From NCBI RefSeq assembly GCF_013387495.1, contig NZ_JABZEE010000015.1, positions 124,001 to 188,000 of the forward strand: 64,000 bases of DNA, given 5' to 3'. A program made the translations under genes and the position numbers. Positions 1 through 9,816 of the stretch are shown here, piece by piece (the stretch's first letter is position 1; every line of letters starts with the position of its first letter). The notes under the pieces were generated by a model. The model saw nothing but the letters and a program-made list of their open reading frames with translations. It did no database searches and was not told where the DNA came from. The DNA comes from Streptomyces sp. PKU-EA00015. Lineage in GTDB: Bacteria > Actinomycetota > Actinomycetes > Streptomycetales > Streptomycetaceae.

Positions 1-541
1 GCGTGAGCCCGGCCTGTTCCAGGATCCGCAGCACGAGCGCGCCCTGCGCCTGGCCCGGGCTGTAGGCGATCTTCTTGCCGCGCAGGTCCGCAAGCGTCCT
101 GATGCCTGCCCCGGGAGCGACGCCCAGCTCGTAGACCGGGTGCCGGAGCGGATCCTTGCGGAACTTCGCCGCCACGAGCTTGGTGTCGAGGCCCGTCCAG
201 TGAGCGTTGATCGACGGGATCTCCGCGGCCGAGCAGAGGTCGAGAGCCCCGGCACGGAAGGCCTCGGAGCACTTCGGTCCGCCGCTGATGTTGGCCCACT
301 CCACCTTGAAGGGAAGCTTGTCGATCTGACCCGACAGCTCCAGTGCGACCCTGAGCTGCGGCGCACCGACGGTCAGGGTGGTGTCGGGGGAGACCGCGGC
401 CGGGATCTTCTCCTCGGAGACGTCTTTGCCGGTAGCCGTGGACTGTGTGGTGCCCGCGCAGGCGGTCAGCAGAAGGGCAGCCGAGAGCGTGGCCGTGAGG
501 GCGGTCGGTAGGGATGGGGGCATGCGCAAGCGAGGGGACAT
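1..541 (-). CDS. ABC transporter substrate-binding lipoprotein, SsuA/NMT1-like (partial)
   Basis: The gene runs off the left edge, so only the N-terminal ~180 residues are present. The N-terminus is a lipoprotein signal peptide: basic n-region (MSPRLR), hydrophobic stretch, lipobox LLTAC with the modified Cys at about residue 28. The mature part has the look of periplasmic-binding-like proteins of the SsuA/NMT1 group (TLTVGAPQ near the start, then DLRGKKIAYSPGQAQG, the typical 'loop, then domain crossing' region). I chose the ATG at 541 because GAAGG lies just upstream and it keeps the arginines of the signal peptide; an ATG at 523 in the same frame is possible. Family knowledge suggests uptake of a small organic or sulfonate-type ligand; the ligand cannot be read from the sequence. 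The permease and ATPase partners would lie outside the window. Confidence 0.75.
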   Translation of the reverse strand, partial: MSPRLRMPPSLPTALTATLSAALLLTACAGTTQSTATGKDVSEEKIPAAVSPDTTLTVGAPQLRVALELSGQIDKLPFKVEWANISGGPKCSEAFRAGALDLCSAAEIPSINAHWTGLDTKLVAAKFRKDPLRHPVYELGVAPGAGIRTLADLRGKKIAYSPGQAQGALVLRILEQAGLT

Positions 542-1022
542 TCATGCCTTCACAGAGCGTGAGAAGCCACCAGGGCGGGGATGAGCCCGGAACGTGGCGA
601 AAGGGGAAAGGGGAAGCCGAAGCAGTCGGACAGCGTCGGTGGGGTCAGCTGCACACCGCGGTGGGGTCAGCTGCACACCCCGGTGGGCTCAGCTACACAC
701 CGCGGTGGCGACGCGCATCAGATCGATGGCCCGCCTCTTCCGAAACCGCTGGGAGATCCGCACATCGGCGAACGTAGCCACGGGCCGAAACCCGGTCAAG
801 AAGCGTCGGTTCGTTCGGCCCCCGCTGCAATGACACTGTCGTAGGCGGGCCATGTCCGCGTTACAACGCGGTCCGGTCCAGGGGACAACAACAGCGCGGA
901 AGGCGGACCCCGACGCCGGCCAGACCTGGGCCGAGCTGATCAGCGCCCTCAGCGCCGCCGGTGGTCCCACCTGTGACTACCGGCAGATCGACCGGTCGAC
1001 GGCGCCGACGGCGGGTGGGGGA
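542..1022. other. Non-coding stretch with repeats
   Basis: No convincing gene. It holds a three-copy tandem repeat (637-708) and a perfect 11-bp inverted repeat, ATGGCCCGCCT at 726-736 and AGGCGGGCCAT at 843-853, separated by 106 bp. The short frames between these look like chance frames. The large symporter/phosphatase gene ends at the right border of this stretch and the binding-protein gene starts at its left border, both on the minus strand. Confidence 0.4.
637..708. repeat. 22-bp tandem repeat, three copies
   Basis: CGGTGGGGTCAGCTGCACACC occurs at 637-657 and 659-679, and a third copy with two changes (CGGTGGGCTCAGCTACACACC) at 681-701, each separated by one base; a fourth partial copy (CGGTGG) follows. 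Each unit is nearly palindromic around CAGCTG (GGTG...CACC). The array lies about 100 bp upstream of the binding-lipoprotein start on the minus strand, so it could be a set of operators or simply a minisatellite. Confidence 0.6.
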
Positions 1023-4000
1023 TCAGGGGATCACCTGTTCCGTCCAGATGATCTTTCCCGTCTTGGTGTAGCGCGTGCCCCAACGGCGGGCGAGCTGGGC
1101 GACGATCAACAGGCCCCGCCCTCCCTCGTCCGTCGTCCGGGCGTGGCGCAGGCGAGGCGAAGTGCTGCTCGCGTCGGACACTTCGCAGATCAGGGCACGG
1201 TCCCGGATCAGCCGCAGAACGATCGGGCCGGTCGCATGACGGATGGCGTTGGTGACCAGCTCGCTGACGATCAGCTCCGTGGTGAACGTCAGATCGTCCA
1301 GGTCCCATTCCGACAGTTGCCGGCCGGCGACGCTGCGGGCGTTTGCGACGGCGGCGGGGTCCGAGGGCAGGTCCCAGGACGCGACCCGGTCCGAGCCCAG
1401 CAGGCGGGTCCGGGCAAGGAGCAGGGCGGCATCGTCGCGCGGCGGAACGGCCAGCAGCTCATCGACCACGTGGTTGCCTGTCTCCTGCAGAGACGGGCCG
1501 GGCACCGCGAGTGTGCCGCTCAGCTTGGACAGCCCGACGTCGATGTCCCGGTCCGGAGCCCGGATGAGGCCGTCGGTGTACAGCCCGATCAGGCTGCCCT
1601 CGGCCAGTTCCAGTTCCCCCGACTCGAAGGGCAGGGAGCCGAGGCCGAGCGGCGGTCCGGCGGGCAGGTCCAGGAAGTCGACGGCGCCGTCGGGTCCGAC
1701 GATCACAGGCGGGAGGTGACCGGCCCGGGCCAGTGTGCACACTCCGGTGACCGGGTCGTACACGGCGTACAGGCAGGTGGCCCCCAACATCGCGGTGCCC
1801 ACGCTCTCGTTCTCGGCCGATGTCGGCTCACCGCCGCCGCGCGACTCGATGAGGCCGATGACCAGGTCGTCCAGGTGGGCCAGCAGTTCGTCGGGGGGAA
1901 GGTCCAGATTGGCCAGCGTGCGCACCGCCGTGCGGAGCCGCCCCATGGTCGCCGCGGAGTGGATGCCGTGCCCGACCACGTCCCCGACGACCAACGCGAC
2001 CCGGGCCCCGGAGAGGGGAATCACGTCGAACCAGTCACCGCCCACGCCGTTCGGCGCATCCGCCGGGCAGTACCACGATGCCACCTCCAGCGCGGATCCT
2101 CCGGTCAGCTCCTGCGGCAGCAGGTATTGCTGCATCGACTGGGCCGCGGTCCGCTCGCGGGTGAAGCGGCGTGCGTTGTCGATGGACACGGCGGCACGGG
2201 AGACGAGTTCCTCGGCGAGACGTACGTCGTCCTCCTCGAAGGGCCACGAACGCCCGGACCGGACGAACGTCGCCGCGCCCAGGGTGACGCCGCGGGCCCG
2301 CACCGGCACCACCATGATTGAGCGGAGGTCGAACCGACGGATGGCGGGGCCCAGCGACGGGTCCATGGCCACCCACGCCTCGGGGGAGTGTTCCAGGTCC
2401 TCCACCAGGGTCCTGCTCTCCAGCAGGCAGCGGGCGACGGGCGAGGACGGCGCGCGCTGGACCACTTCCCCCACGGCCAGTCGCGCCTCCGGGCTCCCCT
2501 CGCGGACCGACCTCTGCCCCGCGCGGCGGATGACGGGTCCGAGGTCGACCGGCCCGGGAGCGGGCTCCTCGCCCCTGATGACCGAGTCCAGCAGGTCGAC
2601 GGCGACGAAGTCGGCGACGGAGGGCACGGCGTTGTCGGCCAGTTCCTGCGCGGTCAGCTGCACATCCAGCGCGCTGCCGATACGGGCACTGGCGTCGTTC
2701 AGGAGGGCGAGGCGCTCCTGTGCCCGTCGGCGCTCGGTGACGTCGATGATCATGTACCAGACGCCCACCTGTCGGCCGCGGCGGTCCTTCATGCCGAAGA
2801 ACGAGGCCGAGTACGCCCGCTCCAGGTAGGGCTCGCCATGGCCGAAGCCGCTGAACTCGTGGTCCATCACCGGAGCCCCGGTCCGCAGGACGGTCCGCAT
2901 TCTCTCCTCGAACGCCTCTGCCGTGGGCCTCGGCAGTACCTCCTTCACCTGGCGCCCCAGTCGTCGTTCCGTTGGCATCAGCCGCCCCAGCACCTTGTTC
3001 ACCCAGACGTAGCGCAGATCGGTGTCCAGGACGGCCACACCGACCGGCGCGTCGGACAGGAACGGCACGAGCAGCAGCTGGCTGACCCCGCCTCCCGGCA
3101 TCCGCCAGAAAGCACGCTGCGGTGGCCGGCCGACGAACCTGCCGAAGACCAGCGCGGCGACTGTGGCGACCAGCACGCCCGGAACCATCTCGTAGATGCC
3201 CGACTCGAGCGGCCCGAGCAGCGGATTGATCCTGTCCCACAGGAGCACCGTGGCCGCGCCCGACACGATTCCGGCCATGGCCCCCGCCCAGGTCATACGC
3301 GGCCAGTACAACGACAGGAGGACGACCGGTCCGAAGGCCGCGCCGAAGCCCGCCCAGGCGTAGGCGACGATGTTCAGTACACCGCCGCCCCCCAGCGCGA
3401 CCAGGCAGGCGACCGTGATCACCACCACCACGGCGCCGCGACCGACCCACACCAGCGTCCTGTCCGAGGCACGCCGTCTGAGGAACGCCCGGTAGAAGTC
3501 CTCCGTGAGGGCGACGGAGGACACCAGGAGCTGGCTGTCCGCGGTCGACATGATCGCGGCCAGTACCGCGACCAGCATCAGCCCGGCGATCCAGGGGTTG
3601 AGCAGGGTCTCGCTCAGGACGATGAAGACGGTTTCCGGGTTGGCCAGGGGGGCGCCGGACTGTGCGATTCCCACGAGGCCGACGAGAATGGCGCCGGTGA
3701 GCACGACCAGCACCCAGACCGTTCCGATGCGCCGGGCCGCCGGGACAGCCCTGGGGCTGCGGATGCCCATGAAGCGGGCCAGGATGTGCGGCTGGCCGAA
3801 ATAGCCGAGGCCCCAGGCGAGGAGCGAAACGATCGCCACGGCGCCGAGCGATCCGCCCGCCGTCCACCGGCCGTCGACGAAGTCGGCCTCGGCCCCGATG
3901 TCCAGCAGGGTCGGCGTCTTGCTGTCGAGGGAGTCCGCCAGGGATCCGAAGCCCCCGAGCGCCGCGATACCGACCAGGGGGAGTACCAGCAGGGCGAGGA

Positions 4001-4586
4001 ACATCAGAGTGCCCTGCATGACGTGCGTCAGGCTGACGGCGAGGAAGCCGCCGAGACACGCATAGGTCACGATCACCACAGCGGTCAACACGGCCCCGAG
4101 TTCGAAGGCGACCCCGAATACCTGCTCGAACAGCAGCCCCCCGGCCACCAGGCCGCTGGCGACGTAGACGGTGAAGAACACGACGGTGACGGCGGCCGAG
4201 ACCATCCGGAGCATCCGGGTGCGGTCCTCGAAACGCTCCTCCAGGTAGGCCGACAGGCTGACGGCGTTACCGGCCCGCTCGGTGTAGGTACGCAGCCTCG
4301 GCGCGACGAGCAGCCAGTTCAGATAGGTGCCGGCGGCCAGACCTACGGCGATCCAGCTTGCGCCGATGCCGGCGGCGTAGACGGCCCCGGGAAGGGCCAG
4401 GAACAGCCAGCCCGACATGTCGCTCGCGCCGGCGGACAGCGCCGCGACCGGCGCGCTGAGCCTGCGCCCGCCCAGCGCGAAATCGGCGAAGGTACGGGTC
4501 CGGGTGTAGGCCCAGATCCCCACCGCGATCACGGCCACCACGTAGACGATGAACGTGGCCAGAACCGGCGCGCTCAGGTCGGACAT
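1023..4586 (-). CDS. PutP-like Na+/solute symporter fused to PAS-GAF-PP2C(SpoIIE)-HATPase
   Basis: A 1187-residue membrane sensor/phosphatase. Residues ~1-500 form a sodium:solute symporter of the PutP class: SDMSGWLFLALPGA in TM2 and STADSQLLVSS in TM8 match the Na+-binding regions of proline permease. Then come a PAS domain (~515-635, ending WYMIIDVTERRRAQE), a GAF domain (~650-815), a SpoIIE-type PP2C phosphatase (~830-1040; QQYLLPQ linker, GGDWFDVI and VGDVVGHG metal-binding motifs) and a C-terminal HATPase domain (~1065-1180; SELVTNAIRHA N-box, TDEGGRGLL). The start at 4586 has GAGGAAG upstream and begins directly before TM1; an upstream in-frame start exists but lacks support. Family knowledge: SpoIIE phosphatases and RsbW-like kinases act on STAS anti-anti-sigma factors. 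Inference: the transporter part senses substrate or flux and controls partner-switching, by analogy with the CbrA histidine kinase, which also carries an SLC5 transporter. Confidence 0.9.
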   Translation of the reverse strand: MSDLSAPVLATFIVYVVAVIAVGIWAYTRTRTFADFALGGRRLSAPVAALSAGASDMSGWLFLALPGAVYAAGIGASWIAVGLAAGTYLNWLLVAPRLRTYTERAGNAVSLSAYLEERFEDRTRMLRMVSAAVTVVFFTVYVASGLVAGGLLFEQVFGVAFELGAVLTAVVIVTYACLGGFLAVSLTHVMQGTLMFLALLVLPLVGIAALGGFGSLADSLDSKTPTLLDIGAEADFVDGRWTAGGSLGAVAIVSLLAWGLGYFGQPHILARFMGIRSPRAVPAARRIGTVWVLVVLTGAILVGLVGIAQSGAPLANPETVFIVLSETLLNPWIAGLMLVAVLAAIMSTADSQLLVSSVALTEDFYRAFLRRRASDRTLVWVGRGAVVVVITVACLVALGGGGVLNIVAYAWAGFGAAFGPVVLLSLYWPRMTWAGAMAGIVSGAATVLLWDRINPLLGPLESGIYEMVPGVLVATVAALVFGRFVGRPPQRAFWRMPGGGVSQLLLVPFLSDAPVGVAVLDTDLRYVWVNKVLGRLMPTERRLGRQVKEVLPRPTAEAFEERMRTVLRTGAPVMDHEFSGFGHGEPYLERAYSASFFGMKDRRGRQVGVWYMIIDVTERRRAQERLALLNDASARIGSALDVQLTAQELADNAVPSVADFVAVDLLDSVIRGEEPAPGPVDLGPVIRRAGQRSVREGSPEARLAVGEVVQRAPSSPVARCLLESRTLVEDLEHSPEAWVAMDPSLGPAIRRFDLRSIMVVPVRARGVTLGAATFVRSGRSWPFEEDDVRLAEELVSRAAVSIDNARRFTRERTAAQSMQQYLLPQELTGGSALEVASWYCPADAPNGVGGDWFDVIPLSGARVALVVGDVVGHGIHSAATMGRLRTAVRTLANLDLPPDELLAHLDDLVIGLIESRGGGEPTSAENESVGTAMLGATCLYAVYDPVTGVCTLARAGHLPPVIVGPDGAVDFLDLPAGPPLGLGSLPFESGELELAEGSLIGLYTDGLIRAPDRDIDVGLSKLSGTLAVPGPSLQETGNHVVDELLAVPPRDDAALLLARTRLLGSDRVASWDLPSDPAAVANARSVAGRQLSEWDLDDLTFTTELIVSELVTNAIRHATGPIVLRLIRDRALICEVSDASSTSPRLRHARTTDEGGRGLLIVAQLARRWGTRYTKTGKIIWTEQVIP

Positions 4587-4744
4587 GTCTTCCTCGCTCG
4601 GGAGGCGGATGAGCACAGGCAACAACGTCGGCTCAGCTGCAGCTCGCCCTGGCACAAATGTACCGACTCCCGGGTCTGGGAACTCCTCACGAAATGATCT
4701 TCAAGGTGGTCGGATCACTCCGGGACCGATGATCCAGGGGGCTG

Positions 4745-4890
4745 GGTGGCTCGGCCGAAGCCGTGGGAAGCCGACGCCGAGCTGTGGGCGGTGGTCGAGC
4801 CACTGCTGCCCAAGGCCTGGCGTCGGGGCCCGGCACCCCGGGCGTAAGCGGCATCCGGACCGGCTGCTGTTCCAGGGCATCCCGTCGCGG
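4745..4890 (+). pseudogene. IS5-family transposase N-terminal remnant
   Basis: The frame reads VARPKPWEADAELWAVVEP followed by LLPK, the usual beginning of Streptomyces IS5-family transposases. It hits a stop at about 4846, and the next conserved piece (HPGRKRHPDRLLFQGI) continues in another frame, so there is at least one frameshift. Nothing recognisable of the remaining transposase follows. It is a dead fragment. Confidence 0.6.
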
Positions 4891-5148
4891 CAGCCGACGT
4901 CGTCGACGCCCGCGCCGACGTCGCCACCGCCTCGCCGCTGAAGGGCACGGTCGACGTCGCCGGCCCCGATGTCTCCCCACTGGGCGGGCTCAGCCTCCTC
5001 ACTGTCACCACCCGGTCCCCGGCCTGCCCACTCGCCGCCGCCAGAGGCTCGCCCAGCCATGTGATCCGCGCGCCGGTCACCGGCACACCCGGACCAACGA
5101 TCCGAGGTGATCAGCTGCCGGGCAGGGCCGGGCCGTGGCCCGGCAGGC
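4891..5148. other. Unassigned sequence after the transposase scrap
   Basis: Both strands are open in places, but no frame has a ribosome-binding site plus a recognisable product. A plus-strand frame (SPLKGTVDVAGPDVSP) and a minus-strand frame starting near 5086 (MPVTGARITWLGEPLAAA) look somewhat protein-like and may be debris of a lost gene. Confidence 0.3.
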
Positions 5149-5709
5149 TCAGGTGAGGTCGGTGAGGATGTCGGAGACGGCACCGGGGCGTCCGGGCCTC
5201 AGGAGCTTCTCGAAGAGAGTCATGACCAGTTCGTCGGTCTCGTCCAGGACATGGTGGTCGTCGCGGCTGACGTGGCCGTCGTGGGGGCGGAAGCCGTGCT
5301 TGGCGAACGAGGCGATTCGGGTGCCGTCCCGCACTGCGTCGGCACTCTGCCCGCCGGTGTGAAGGAACGCGTAACTCCGGCCGTGGACGAGGGCACGACC
5401 GGCTTTCTCCCGACGGCGCCCGCTGTGGGTGCCATCGCTGACGAACGCCTGCTCATCGTGCGGACGCAGTGTGACCGGGGTGGGTGTCCGGGCAGGCAGC
5501 GACGGACCGTTGGTCTCGAATGCGCGGCTGGTGACCGCGTTCTGCCGCTTGGCGAACCAGCCGGTGAAGTGCGGCACAGGCTCGATGGCGACGGACGCCC
5601 GGACCTGTCCCGAGGGGTCGATCACGTCGGCGCGGGTGCGCGTCTCGTCGACATCGACGCGCCAACCACCGCGGGTGGGCCGACGCCAGAGGGGGATCTC
5701 TTCTGCCAT
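5149..5709 (-). CDS. Hypothetical protein, 186 aa
   Basis: No family recognised. The protein begins MAEEIPLWRRPTRGGW and has no signal peptide or membrane segment. It is moderately charged, with a His-rich middle (RPHDGHVSRDDHHVLDE) and a helical C-terminus (TDELVMTLFEKLLR). Codon usage is typical of the window, with G/C in third positions. The ATG at 5709 has GAGAGG eight bases upstream; a GTG six bases further upstream would place the Shine-Dalgarno too close. It stands alone: the upstream lipase gene is separated by a strong terminator. Confidence 0.6.
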   Translation of the reverse strand: MAEEIPLWRRPTRGGWRVDVDETRTRADVIDPSGQVRASVAIEPVPHFTGWFAKRQNAVTSRAFETNGPSLPARTPTPVTLRPHDEQAFVSDGTHSGRRREKAGRALVHGRSYAFLHTGGQSADAVRDGTRIASFAKHGFRPHDGHVSRDDHHVLDETDELVMTLFEKLLRPGRPGAVSDILTDLT

Positions 5710-5988: not shown

Positions 5989-6897
5989 TCACCATTGCCT
6001 GTGCCAGTACAGGGCGTTCATCGTTGCTCGCAAGGGTGCGGCGCCGCGCGTCAGGGATCCCCAGGCGCCGCCGTTGTTGGTGTACCGGAGCGGGTACACG
6101 CCCGTCCTGTGGGTACGCAGCGCCGAGTGGTCGATGTTCGACCGCTCCGAGTAGCGCACGAGGTGCTGCGCCCAGACGTCGGTGGGGGCGGCGTTCCCGG
6201 CACTGACGCTCCAGTCGGCGTTCGAGCCGATGAGGGTCCAGTCCGTTCCCCCCTGTGCTTGGGGGAGTTCGGTTCCGAGCCAGCGCCGGAATGTGCTGTC
6301 CGGGTACATCTCCTGGCACTGCCGGTTGATGACGCAGTGGGCGGCCCGCACGCCCTTGTGCGGGGTGCCCAGCGTGACGACGTCTTCCACGAACAGTGTG
6401 TCCGGCCAGGTCGGGTCGCCCTGTTCGTATCCGGCCACCGCAGCCCGGGCGATGAGCCCGCCCATGGAATGGCCGACGAGGTCGACGGTCTGTCCCTTGG
6501 AGGAGTACATCGTGTGGATCTTCCAGGCGAGTTCACGTCCCAGATCCTTCAGGGACGTGTCAGCGGTGCCCTGCCCGCCGGGGTCGATCCGCACATCGCA
6601 CCCTGCATCGTCTGTTCCGTAGAACCCGACGCGGTGCAACTCCCCTTTCCACTTCGACTTGTTGAACAGCTTGACGGCTGATTTCCACTTGTCGCCGCAC
6701 TTGTCGCCGGGCGTATAGCCCTTGATGAAGAAGACCGGACGCAGCGTGCTGTTCTCCCGTGGAGGCGCTGAGGCCCCGATCCCGGACCGGCCGGTCGTGG
6801 TGGCATCGGAGGGAGTGACAGCGCCGGCCGCGGTGGTCGCCGTGAGCAGGAGAGCGACGCTCACCGTGGACGTCGCGAGGGACGAACGGAGTCTCAT
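5989..6897 (-). CDS. Secreted alpha/beta-hydrolase lipase/esterase
   Basis: 302 residues with a Sec signal peptide (MRLRSS, then TVSVALLLTATTAAGA; cleavage near residue 25). The nucleophile elbow is VGHSMGGLIA with the catalytic Ser at about residue 144. The oxyanion region lies in VFFIKGYTP near residue 56, and several Cys pairs fit an extracellular disulfide-bonded protein. This matches actinobacterial class-2-like triacylglycerol lipases/esterases that act on lipid esters outside the cell. A GGGAG ribosome-binding site precedes the ATG at 6897; the frame stays open upstream but without a signal peptide start. It is a single-gene unit ended by the hairpin at 5791. Substrate specificity is unknown. 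Confidence 0.85.
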   Translation of the reverse strand: MRLRSSLATSTVSVALLLTATTAAGAVTPSDATTTGRSGIGASAPPRENSTLRPVFFIKGYTPGDKCGDKWKSAVKLFNKSKWKGELHRVGFYGTDDAGCDVRIDPGGQGTADTSLKDLGRELAWKIHTMYSSKGQTVDLVGHSMGGLIARAAVAGYEQGDPTWPDTLFVEDVVTLGTPHKGVRAAHCVINRQCQEMYPDSTFRRWLGTELPQAQGGTDWTLIGSNADWSVSAGNAAPTDVWAQHLVRYSERSNIDHSALRTHRTGVYPLRYTNNGGAWGSLTRGAAPLRATMNALYWHRQW

Positions 6898-7161
6898 GGG
6901 TGAACTCCCAGGTGTTTGTGGACTCTGACAGTCGTCGACTGTTCCGCAGAGGCCACGCTCCCACCAGGCTGTTTCCCTGTCCGGGACACGTCTGGGCTGT
7001 CCCGGACAGCCCGGACCGCAGGAGCACCGCTGTCCCTCTTCGGCGCCTTGCGCCTCCAATCCGTGCCTGGGACGCCCCAGCCGGTGCGTTCCGGCCGATT
7101 CCGGCAAGCCGGCGGTCGCGAAACGCCCCATGAGGGCGGTGCGTGCCGTCAGAGGGAGGCG

Positions 7162-8400
7162 TCAGGGACGGATTCCGTCGCAGGCGATGGGCAGGTGTCG
7201 TGGCCCGCGGAGTACGGCGTTCTGCCGGTAGGAGGGTGGGTCCTCCAGCAGGCGTGGGTTCTCGAGTCTGCGGGCGAGTTCCGACAGGGCGAGTTGGGCT
7301 TCGAGCCGGGCGAGTGGTGCGCCGAAGCAGCTGTGGATGCCGCTGCCCAGGCCGAGGTGCTGGATGTCCTGGCGGTCGGGGTCGAAGCGGTCGGGGTTCT
7401 CGAAGCGCTGGGGGTCGCGGTTGCCGGCTGCCAGGACCAGCCAGAGGGAGGCGCCTTTGGGGATGGTGGTGCCGTGGATCTCGATGTCCGCGACGGTCGT
7501 GCGCTGCGGCACCAGTTGTACCGGCGGTTCGAAGCGGAGCAGTTCCTCGACGATGGGCACGGCGAGCCGTGGGTCGGTCCGCAGCCGTTGCAGGATGTCG
7601 GGGTTGCGCAGCAGAGTCAGCATTCCGTTGGTGATGAGGTTGACCGTGGTCTCGTGTCCCGCGATCAGCAGCAGCGCGGCGGTGCTGAGCAGTTCCATCG
7701 TGGTCATCGGGCCGTCCTGGCCTTTGGCCGTGGCCAGCTCGGAGAGCATGTCGTCCTTGGGGTTCTTGCGGCGCTCCTCGATCAGCCCGGCCAGGTACAT
7801 GCCCAGTTGCATACGGGCGTCGTGCGAGATCTTGCCCCGCTCAGTGGGGTCCGCGTCAGGATCGGGATCCAGGCTGGCGGCGATGGTGTCCGCCCAGGTG
7901 TGGAAGCGTGCCTCGTCCTCGCGCGGCACTCCGAGCAGCCGGCAGATCACCGTCACGGGGAAGGGGTAGGAGAACTGGTCGACCAGGTCGATCCGGCCGG
8001 TGTCGCCGATGCCGTCGATGAGGCCGGAGACGATGTCGTGGAGTTCTTGGCGCATCCCGTCGACCCGGCGGGGGGAGTGCGGAGGGCCGAAGGGCCGGTT
8101 GGTCATGCGACGCAGCCGGTCGTGCTCCGGCGGGTCGAGCCGCAGGAAGCCCGGGGGCAGGGCGCTCTCCTCTTCCTGGGCCGACTCGGCCAGCGGGTCG
8201 TGGGTGGTCGAGGCCAGATTGCGGGCGTCGGAACTGATACGAGGGTCGTGCAGGAGGCTGCGGATCTCGTAGTAGGTGCTCACGACGTACGGCCCGTCCG
8301 CTTCCTGGTGGACCGGTGTCTTGCGCAGCTCCTCGTAGATCGGGTACGGATTGGCGCGGTTGGCGTAGTCCAGGATCTGGTGCAGCAGGGATGGCGTCAT
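7162..8400 (-). CDS. Cytochrome P450
   Basis: A 412-residue soluble bacterial P450 of the CYP105/107-like type. Landmarks are the I-helix AGHETT (247-252), the ExxR motif EELLR (E286/R289) and the heme loop LGSGIHSCFGAPLAR with the thiolate Cys358. It would hydroxylate a small organic substrate using electrons from the ferredoxin and reductase encoded just upstream in the same operon (24-bp gap to the reductase). No biosynthetic enzymes are adjacent, so the role may be catabolic or detoxifying; the substrate cannot be inferred. Confidence 0.95.
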   Translation of the reverse strand: MTPSLLHQILDYANRANPYPIYEELRKTPVHQEADGPYVVSTYYEIRSLLHDPRISSDARNLASTTHDPLAESAQEEESALPPGFLRLDPPEHDRLRRMTNRPFGPPHSPRRVDGMRQELHDIVSGLIDGIGDTGRIDLVDQFSYPFPVTVICRLLGVPREDEARFHTWADTIAASLDPDPDADPTERGKISHDARMQLGMYLAGLIEERRKNPKDDMLSELATAKGQDGPMTTMELLSTAALLLIAGHETTVNLITNGMLTLLRNPDILQRLRTDPRLAVPIVEELLRFEPPVQLVPQRTTVADIEIHGTTIPKGASLWLVLAAGNRDPQRFENPDRFDPDRQDIQHLGLGSGIHSCFGAPLARLEAQLALSELARRLENPRLLEDPPSYRQNAVLRGPRHLPIACDGIRP

Positions 8401-8424
8401 GGCGGGTCCTCGTGGCCGTGCGGG

Positions 8425-9816
8425 TCAGTGTGCGGGGGTGAACGTCATCCGGCGGTCGGCCGGTGAGTATCCGCTGAGGGTCACAGTGGGGCCGTGGGTG
8501 GGGATCGACGGGTCGGGGAAGTCGGCGTCCATCGGCCGCTGTCCGTCCGAGCGCCGGTCGACCGTGGGGAACGGCGGCGGGAACGGTGCAGTGGTCTCGA
8601 TCTGCTCCTGGTAGAACGGCAGCCACCGGGCATGGTCGAAGGCGACCGCGCCGATGACGCGTCCCTGGTATCCGTAGACGCCGATGAACCGGTGATCGTC
8701 GAGCGTGCCCTGGGAGATGACGATCTCGGTTCCGAGCGACGGCACACCGACGGACTTGATGTTCACGCCGAACTGTGAGGACCAGAAGGCCGGCACCCAC
8801 ATGTGGGGGATGCGGTCGGTGCTCTCGCTGAGCATGTTGTGGGCCGCGGTCCTTGCCTGCGAGACGGCGTTGCCCCAGTGCTCCAGCGACAGGAACTGGT
8901 AGCCGAACAGGGCGTGCGGGGAGCGGGCGACGTCACCGGCGACGAAGATGTCGTCGGTCACGATTCCACGGACGTCGAAAGCACGGCAGCCGGCGTCGCA
9001 GGCGATGCCGCGAGGCCCGGCACCGAGCCCGGACCCGGCGAGCCACTCGGTGTTGCGGGTGGCGCCGAGCGAGACGACCACCACGTCGGTCTCGACGGTG
9101 GAGCCGTCGGACAGGTGCGCGGCGCGCACCCGTCCCGAGGCGTCGCCCTCCAACGAGGTCACCATGACCCCGCAGCGCAGGTCGACGCCGTGCTTGCGCT
9201 GGAGGTCGCCGGCGACCGCGCCGACCACCCCGCCGAGCGCGCCGACCAGGGGCGCCGCGCCGCGTTCGGCGACGGTGACGGCGACGCCGCGTTCGCGGCA
9301 GGCGGAGGCGATCTCCGAGCCGGTGAACCCGGCGCCGATGACGAAGACCCGCTTGGGGCCCTCCGCGAGCCGCCGTGCGAGCGCGGCGCCGTCGTCGCGG
9401 GTCCGCAGCACGAAGACCCCGTCGAGTTCCGCCTCGGCCTCGCGCGGCCACGGTCGTGCCCGCACGCCGGTGGCGATCAGCAGCCGGTCGTACGGCACCT
9501 CGTCGCCGTCGGCCAGCCGCACCCGCTTGGCGGCCATGTCCAGGCCGGTGGCCGGGACGCCGAGCCGCCAGGTCGCGTCCAGGGCACGGCGCCTGGGCAG
9601 GGCGGTGCGGTCCGCGGTGGACATGCCCAGCAGCACCTGCTTGGACAGCGGGGGCCGGTCGTACGGCTCGTACGGCTCGTCGCCGATCATTGTCAGGGAA
9701 CCGGCGAAGCCCTTGTCGCGGAGGGTCTCCGCGGCGCGCAGGCCCGCCAGCGAGGCGCCGACGACGACGATACGGCCCTCGCGTCTGAGTCTTTCCAGCC
9801 ATCCGTCAGCGTTCAC
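8425..9816 (-). CDS. FAD-dependent ferredoxin reductase
   Basis: 463 residues. N-terminal FAD-binding motif VVVGASLAGLRAAETLR, then YEPYDRPPLSKQVL typical of putidaredoxin-reductase/BphA4-like proteins, a second GxGxxG for NAD(P)H (VFVIGAGFTGSEIASACRE) and the FAD-binding IFVAGDVARSP. It takes electrons from NAD(P)H and passes them to the ferredoxin. It starts with GTG at 9816, inside the last codons of the ferredoxin gene (11-bp overlap), which indicates translational coupling. It is the middle gene of the ferredoxin-reductase-P450 operon. Confidence 0.93.
   Translation of the reverse strand: MNADGWLERLRREGRIVVVGASLAGLRAAETLRDKGFAGSLTMIGDEPYEPYDRPPLSKQVLLGMSTADRTALPRRRALDATWRLGVPATGLDMAAKRVRLADGDEVPYDRLLIATGVRARPWPREAEAELDGVFVLRTRDDGAALARRLAEGPKRVFVIGAGFTGSEIASACRERGVAVTVAERGAAPLVGALGGVVGAVAGDLQRKHGVDLRCGVMVTSLEGDASGRVRAAHLSDGSTVETDVVVVSLGATRNTEWLAGSGLGAGPRGIACDAGCRAFDVRGIVTDDIFVAGDVARSPHALFGYQFLSLEHWGNAVSQARTAAHNMLSESTDRIPHMWVPAFWSSQFGVNIKSVGVPSLGTEIVISQGTLDDHRFIGVYGYQGRVIGAVAFDHARWLPFYQEQIETTAPFPPPFPTVDRRSDGQRPMDADFPDPSIPTHGPTVTLSGYSPADRRMTFTPAH

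Follow-up and report, generated by a model that had tools for sequence, protein, structure and literature searches.

A Streptomyces PutP-Type Symporter Fused to a Phosphatase and Kinase of Partner-Switching Type: A Putative Proline/Na+-Responsive Transceptor

Gene and Domain Organization

The window analyzed here is a 64,000-nucleotide stretch of the genome of Streptomyces sp. PKU-EA00015 (contig NZ_JABZEE010000015.1, positions 124,001 to 188,000). A coding sequence on its minus strand (1023..4586; ATG at 4586, stop codon at 1025-1023) specifies an 1187-residue protein in which an SLC5 symporter is followed by PAS, GAF, PP2C and HATPase domains. The initial annotation had described such a single polypeptide, and the Pfam search of the full protein bears it out, as all five domains score above their gathering cut-offs. 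On the minus strand, the SSF domain (residues 36-443; 3258..4481) matches the full model with 302 bits. It is followed by a PAS_4 domain (residues 511-621; 2724..3056), which corresponds to the second PAS of free relatives, a GAF domain (residues 702-802; 2181..2483) and a SpoIIE/PP2C phosphatase match (residues 860-1060; 1407..2009) containing D869, D1005 and D1051/D1052, with a GGDWFD motif directly ahead of it at residues 849-854. The chain closes with an RsbW-like HATPase_c_2 domain (residues 1073-1180; 1047..1370), which scores 44.7 bits against a cut-off of 27.4 and carries E1109, N1113, D1138 and GGRGL at residues 1155-1159.

No Pfam match to STAS, HisKA or STAC was obtained in the protein, the existence of a Pfam model for STAC being uncertain. 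The match to the PutP family model TIGR02121 ends at residue 490 and the PAS match begins at 511; these 20 intervening residues leave no room for a STAC domain. The mechanically called open reading frame begins further upstream, at GTG 4655. ATG 4586 is favored as the start because the upstream DNA has diverged among orthologues except for one short element, and a ribosome-binding-like GAGGA can be read from the sequence at 4591..4595 (minus strand).

Distribution of the Fusion

The fusion was followed through overlapping genome samples. Weaker fusions could be missed in the tables for close relatives and for the order, and results for these samples hold among the matches listed. For an initial 41 genomes, the source genome and 40 relatives, three full-length matches without internal stops were listed (100, 79 and 78% identity). 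With a 201-residue query spanning the junction of the two halves, matches over nearly the whole query were found in 32 of 392 Streptomyces genomes, six of them in single-contig assemblies, in 25 of 293 genomes of an order sample consisting mostly of Streptomyces, and in 2 of 346 genomes of a phylum sample. All of the order and phylum matches are in Streptomyces, and no fusion outside the genus appears among the matches listed for the relative, order and phylum samples.

A contig scan of 84,980 species with junction alignment yielded 56 loci whose titles all name Streptomyces, and 54 of them span the junction; the peptide patterns used came from the fusion family itself, so distant fusions would escape the scan. 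The reading frame is open in 52 of these 54 named loci. In L105, from a draft assembly, it is broken near its end, and in L089 an internal run of N prevents a judgment. The conservation analyses below rest on 55 intact rows, namely the 52 named loci, the source genome and two further sampled genomes (G007 and G016), which comprise 54 distinct sequences because L077 (S. echinatus) and G016 (also L003) have the same sequence.

TIGR02121 exceeds its cut-off in 43 of the 392 Streptomyces genomes, with 51 genes divided into 32 fused and 19 free. The fused frames are at least 1193 residues long, and the 43 genomes comprise 25 with only the fused form, 7 with both and 11 with only the free form. Long PutP frames outside the genus (846, 1031 and 1567 residues) were considered as independent fusions and rejected on a reading of six of the twelve listed non-genus matches: in these six, which include the frames of 846 and 1567 residues but not that of 1031, the extension lies upstream and the C-terminus is a normal PutP end.

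Conservation of the Symporter Half

The symporter half belongs with PutP by the equivalog model TIGR02121, which it matches over residues 8-490 with 578.7 bits against a cut-off of 515.5, in keeping with its earlier description as PutP-like. In a scan of the source genome the fusion (581.8 bits) is the sole match above the cut-off, the runner-up reaching 105.7 bits. Identity to E. coli K-12 PutP is 51%. The Na2-site residues A54, M57, A344, S347 and T348 do not vary among the 55 intact rows and match those of E. coli PutP, as is also true of D56, S58, W60, Y141, W258, Y262, P266 and R271, so the Na+-site motifs proposed for the single sequence hold in each of these rows. The Na2 and substrate roles and the numbering are those that we take from the PutP literature, with the Na2 site presumably formed by E. 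coli A53, M56, A337, S340 and T341. The Na2 site has been described in general terms (PMC7918813, section 4.1). The fusion differs from E. coli PutP in having histidine in place of D187 and in a C-terminus that continues into a signaling part of 694 residues.

From these residues and the family assignment, Na+-coupled proline uptake by the symporter half is predicted; other SSF transporters may also carry proline. Ten symporter columns distinguish fused from free Streptomyces PutPs, including residue A64 (E. coli G63), and these are candidate residues for the adaptation of the symporter to signaling.

Conservation of the Phosphatase and Kinase Half

The PP2C residues D851, D854, D869, G872, D1051 and D1052 are invariant in the 55 rows. 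D1005 is aspartate in 52 and asparagine in three (L055, L097 and L102). A loss of PP2C metal ligands, which the initial annotation had named as a refuting outcome, is thus seen nowhere in these rows save at this one position. All 16 of the closest free phosphatases (L184-L199) have asparagine there and may differ in metal use or activity. The metal ligands of SpoIIE are D628, the carbonyl of G629, D746 and D795 (PMC5468089). Their counterparts in the fusion, paired by motif and not by structure, are D869, V870, D1005 and D1051/D1052; V870 replaces G629, a backbone ligand. In the HATPase domain the N-box residues E1109 and N1113, D1138 and the GGRGL motif (G1156 and G1158) are likewise invariant in 55 of 55 rows. 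Among solved structures, the one that best matches the PP2C-HATPase part by sequence is Rv1364c of Mycobacterium tuberculosis (PDB 3ke6).

Family knowledge predicts that such an output would dephosphorylate a STAS protein, phosphorylate a STAS protein and bind a sigma factor. The partner-switching output that had been proposed for this gene stands as far as family type (SpoIIE PP2C and RsbW HATPase) and intact motifs are concerned; the surroundings of the gene lend it little, as STAS-like frames occur near the fusion in 3 of 57 loci.

Origin of the Fusion

Both halves have free homologues at unlinked places, for example C1:7847039 and C1:629395 in genome G363. The 20 free Streptomyces PutPs that were read show 64-76% identity to fusion residues 1-490, and the 16 closest free phosphatases 71-74% to residues 497-1187. 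Domain scans of two free phosphatases, the close relative L185 and the source genome's own paralogue L200 (58% identity), gave the order PAS-PAS-GAF-SpoIIE-HATPase_c_2. The fusion tracks free PutP as far as a GRPPxRxF motif, then free phosphatase from W494 (WRMPGGGV; codon 3105..3107, minus strand) into the second PAS. Since the seam leads into the second PAS, PutP occupies the position that the first PAS has in the free relatives. The tryptophan at the seam is the consensus on both sides: all 20 free PutPs have it, and so do 15 of the 16 free phosphatases.

In the symporter tree the 55 fused rows form one side of a branch with support of 100/100, found in 100% of 200 bootstrap trees. In the phosphatase tree, made by a quick method, they again form one side of a branch, with a Shimodaira-Hasegawa-like approximate likelihood ratio test value (SH-aLRT) of 93, under the 95 mark. 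Because the fused rows group together in the trees of both halves, a single origin of the fusion is likely. Fusion, as opposed to fission followed by gain of a PAS domain, is the simpler reading of the direction and falls short of proof. The distances of the two halves are correlated (Mantel r 0.86; the largest of 500 permutations gave 0.273), as inheritance of one gene predicts, and linkage alone suffices to account for this co-divergence. The ratio of nonsynonymous to synonymous rates (dN/dS) stays under 1 for all pairs and domains measured, with medians of 0.28 for the symporter, 0.464 for PAS, 0.272 for GAF, 0.259 for PP2C and 0.269 for HATPase. These values are rough, as the 1475 of 1485 pairs used are non-independent and codon bias makes the absolute values unsure.

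Comparison with Known Systems

Actinobacterial proteins combining SSS, GAF, PP2C_SIG and HATPase_c domains were reported in 2021 from four isolates, Streptomyces albus, S. griseorubens, S. gilvosporeus and Actinospica acidiphila (PMC7918813, section 5.1.1 and legend of Fig. 6). They have the same domain combination as the present protein, and L102 of the present set is an S. albus member of the fusion family. The sections cited give a domain listing and no function, and a search of literature listings for functional studies of this architecture turned up none. Added here are the extent of the family, the PutP identity, the seam, the PAS exchange, the conservation of sites, the grouping and the prevalence.

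The parallel with CbrA drawn by the initial annotation is upheld by a shared plan: the SLC5-STAC histidine kinases also have an N-terminal SLC5 symporter followed by PAS and a signaling output in one chain. Unlike them, the fusion has no match to STAC or to a HisKA/DHp domain, and its output consists of PP2C and an RsbW-like HATPase. The fusion would thus work like CbrA yet falls outside the SLC5/STAC histidine kinases. The Na2 site is also intact in the fusion, whereas CbrA does not conserve Ser340 and Thr341 and has K196 occupying the site (PMC7096432; PMC13022988). Rv1364c resembles the fusion in joining sensor, phosphatase and kinase in one chain; it differs in that no transporter is named for it and in its own C-terminal anti-anti-sigma domain, which the fusion lacks (PMC12143880).

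Such phosphatases are numerous in the genus. For S. coelicolor, counts of 44 RsbU/RsbP-like phosphatases and of nine homologues of SigB are given (PMC8346170), and the source genome of the fusion has 48 SpoIIE matches, three of these partial or weak. Among them, a phosphatase with a recognizable PutP as its sensor has a named candidate ligand. Natural controls are also at hand, in the form of free PutP and of free phosphatases with PAS at the PutP position.

Proposed Mechanism and Alternative Explanations

The proposed mechanism starts from what is observed directly, that is, the domain content, the intact site residues, the grouping of fused sequences in both halves and the difference of PutP for PAS. 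On this basis the protein may be a transceptor, in which a Na+/proline symporter of the PutP type replaces the N-terminal PAS sensor of an older PAS-PAS-GAF-PP2C-HATPase partner-switching regulator and makes it a proline/Na+-responsive switch; judged from sequence, this reading has about an even chance of being right. The fusion would import proline together with Na+, and substrate occupancy or the conformational cycle, hence proline, Na+ or osmolality, would be the signal. This signal could pass from the remaining PAS through the PAS-GAF helix to GAF, and from there along the GAF-PP2C helix until it reaches the phosphatase switch. The target of dephosphorylation would then be a STAS anti-anti-sigma protein encoded at an unlinked place, be it BldG or a different one, so that a SigB-type sigma factor is freed, and the C-terminal HATPase would rephosphorylate the STAS protein or hold a sigma factor.

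Since proline is a main osmolyte of streptomycetes, osmotic or nutrient stress would be the likeliest physiological setting. Under salt, proline builds up in Streptomyces, whose systems for osmoprotectant uptake are described as uncharacterized (PMC10117811). BldG participates in the activation of SigH under osmotic stress (PMC8346170). RsbU is switched via a coiled-coil linker, and the N-terminal sensors of such phosphatases have been argued to be exchangeable modules that are read via helical linkers (PMC12143880). The PAS-to-PutP exchange is a prediction of this idea, extended to a transporter; the word "transmembrane" does not occur in the main text of PMC12143880. It is the exchangeable-sensor idea, the accumulation of proline under salt and the osmotic link of BldG to SigH that favor a proline/Na+-responsive switch.

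Several points weigh against this proposal. STAC, which joins symporter to output in CbrA, is not seen in the fusion. Uptake by CbrA proceeds without need of the kinase domain, and L-histidine is without effect on CbrA autokinase and phosphotransfer (PMC7096432). Among site residues, D187 of E. coli PutP is replaced by histidine in all 55 fused rows, a replacement shared by 19 of the 20 free Streptomyces PutPs; the position of G63 holds alanine in 54 fused rows and serine in one, while it is glycine in 20 of 20 free PutPs; and the position of S143 (S144 in the fusion) holds serine in 49 rows, glycine in five and alanine in one. STAS-like frames near the fusion are as rare as stated above, and one of them is a frame of 567 residues. 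The full-length AlphaFold2 model, built with 45 of 53 sequences (that of the source genome and 44 of the 52 named open frames), has a mean predicted local distance difference test score (pLDDT) of 55.5 and a predicted template modeling score (pTM) of 0.35; it is too poor to lend coupling any support, and its helices at residues 617-638 and 785-822 back the helical linkers at most weakly.

The chief rival is a bifunctional protein without coupling, in which the symporter serves to import proline and to anchor the regulator at the membrane, PAS and GAF sense another intracellular cue, and transport does not steer the phosphatase. It owes this rank to the indifference of CbrA autokinase and phosphotransfer to L-histidine. 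The SLC5 domain of CbrA is, moreover, dispensable for the kinase and the signal is thought to be intracellular (PMC7096432; PMC7918813), and in the fusion the remaining PAS is the fastest-changing domain, with a median dN/dS of 0.464 against 0.26-0.28 elsewhere. The place of the symporter is, however, that of a sensor domain, and the SLC5 domain of CbrA appears to modulate the autokinase (PMC7096432); an uncoupled protein is a genuine possibility that we nonetheless think rather unlikely. Improbable to a greater degree is a receptor dead for transport, whose symporter fold binds proline or Na+ as a sensor only. The alanine specific to fused sequences at G63 and the histidine at D187 would suit it, yet that histidine is common to free PutPs, the Na2 and listed substrate-site columns are conserved as in free PutPs, the symporter dN/dS of 0.28 is near that of the catalytic domains, and the fusion is the only PutP above the cut-off in 25 of the 43 PutP-bearing genomes.

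The coupling might also run in reverse, with the cytosolic phosphatase/kinase module controlling uptake via the symporter in place of a sigma factor. The lack of a widely conserved neighbor and the few STAS-like frames beside the fusion agree with this, but the same chassis, free of PutP, is present in the 16 close relatives read and in the source genome's own paralogue, and so has a job apart from transport, and CbrA transport is unchanged after removal of its output domains (PMC7096432); this arrangement is given little credence. An artefact, in which two genes were joined by an assembly or frame error, has a negligible chance. The broken frame of L105 and the run of N in L089 are the blemishes; against them stand open frames with the same seam in the remaining 52 of the named loci, and likewise in 32 of the 392 Streptomyces genomes, six in single-contig assemblies, which refute it. 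None of the 32 fused junction matches has an internal stop, and the free homologues are unlinked, so separation of the halves by a stop or frameshift is not what the family displays.

The transceptor reading makes the transport-linked control of an alternative sigma factor, as first suggested for this gene, plausible. The stronger form, that the Na+/proline symport cycle directly sets the sigma-factor switch and that the fusion is the first transceptor with a partner-switching output, is put forward as a speculative claim that is probably too strong. If the reading is true, a whole membrane transporter can act as a plug-in sensor for PP2C phosphatases, and one molecule would combine osmolyte uptake with release of a SigB-type sigma factor, in most of the sampled PutP-bearing genomes (25 of 43) as their only PutP. 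In this way a single molecule could connect the import of a protective solute with the stress response.

Upstream Element and Promoter Searches

The short element spared by divergence of the upstream DNA reads GTACATTTG in the window (4655..4663, minus strand), 77 nt ahead of the start codon. Of the 55 fusion genes (set L001-L003 and L054-L107), 46 carry the motif GTA[GC][AG]TTT upstream, amid otherwise diverged DNA; in 43 of these 46 carriers it stands 77-87 nt before the start, and it is frequently embedded in AATCTGTA(G/C)ATTTGTA. The copy in the window is the one match in 64 kb, where 0.21 are expected, and 14 of 100 shuffles had at least one match. The longer pattern ATCNGTASATTTG occurs seven times in 6 of 20 whole genomes, 15 of which carry the fusion, and its reverse does not occur. 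Five of the seven sites are directly upstream of a fusion gene; the exact pattern is absent at the fusion gene in 10 of the 15 fusion genomes, that of the source strain included. The element could be a -10 box (TA(G/C)ATT) or an operator.

The short element was not found in the available upstream stretches of the free genes, 20 PutPs and 20 phosphatases, a weak comparison as many of these stretches are shorter than 200 bases and a few shorter than 25. A role as a regulon signal was rejected, since the two sites away from the fusion both stand at the start of a same-looking 418-residue frame in two genomes, which points to coincidence or another use. A SigB-type promoter, GNNT-N14-16-GGGTAY in the consensus that we assume, was also discarded, with a match in 1 of 55 upstream regions against a shuffle mean of 1.16. 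A sigma-70 promoter scan of window positions 500-5300 found none, and the sole Rfam match in 4500-5200 was to mir-1292, far under its gathering score.

Partner Proteins and Gene Neighborhood

A STAS partner for the phosphatase was sought in the source genome, with PF01740 as the measure of STAS. Eight matches were found; across the loci, no STAS partner is regularly linked to the fusion gene. The nearest lies about 17 kb away on the same contig (C56:108199-108456), and one piece, L155, presumably resembles BldG. The search for STAS-like neighbors at the fusion loci used a profile built from these eight pieces. Open reading frames around 56 loci (the source genome, G007 and the 54 named loci) were also clustered, and the fusion gene was recognized in 55 of them, all but L089. 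No widely shared neighbor emerged: the top cluster besides the fusion itself is present in 12 of 56 loci, the nearest neighbors differ, and domain calls on neighbors in three genomes did not agree. Because no neighbor is widely shared and STAS-like frames are near 3 of 57 loci, the neighborhood was rejected as a pointer to the partner.

Some neighborhoods recur within parts of the family. In L088-L106, part of a subclade, the fusion lies amid genes that read as universal stress protein-, nitroreductase-, pyridoxamine oxidase- and CBS/rhodanese-like, a set that looks, from the sequence, like a hypoxia or dormancy island. Ten loci (L056, L065, L067, L069, L071, L072, L073, L075, L082 and L085) share a protein cluster with a median length of 842 residues, which in seven of them is encoded upstream, on the strand that carries the fusion gene; in L072 the tail just upstream of the fusion reads like another PP2C phosphatase. 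In the window itself, the minus-strand stretch upstream of the fusion (5989-9816) begins with a lipase-like alpha/beta hydrolase by domain call, followed by genes named from their translations as cytochrome P450-like (7162-8400) and FAD-dependent ferredoxin reductase-like (8425-9816).

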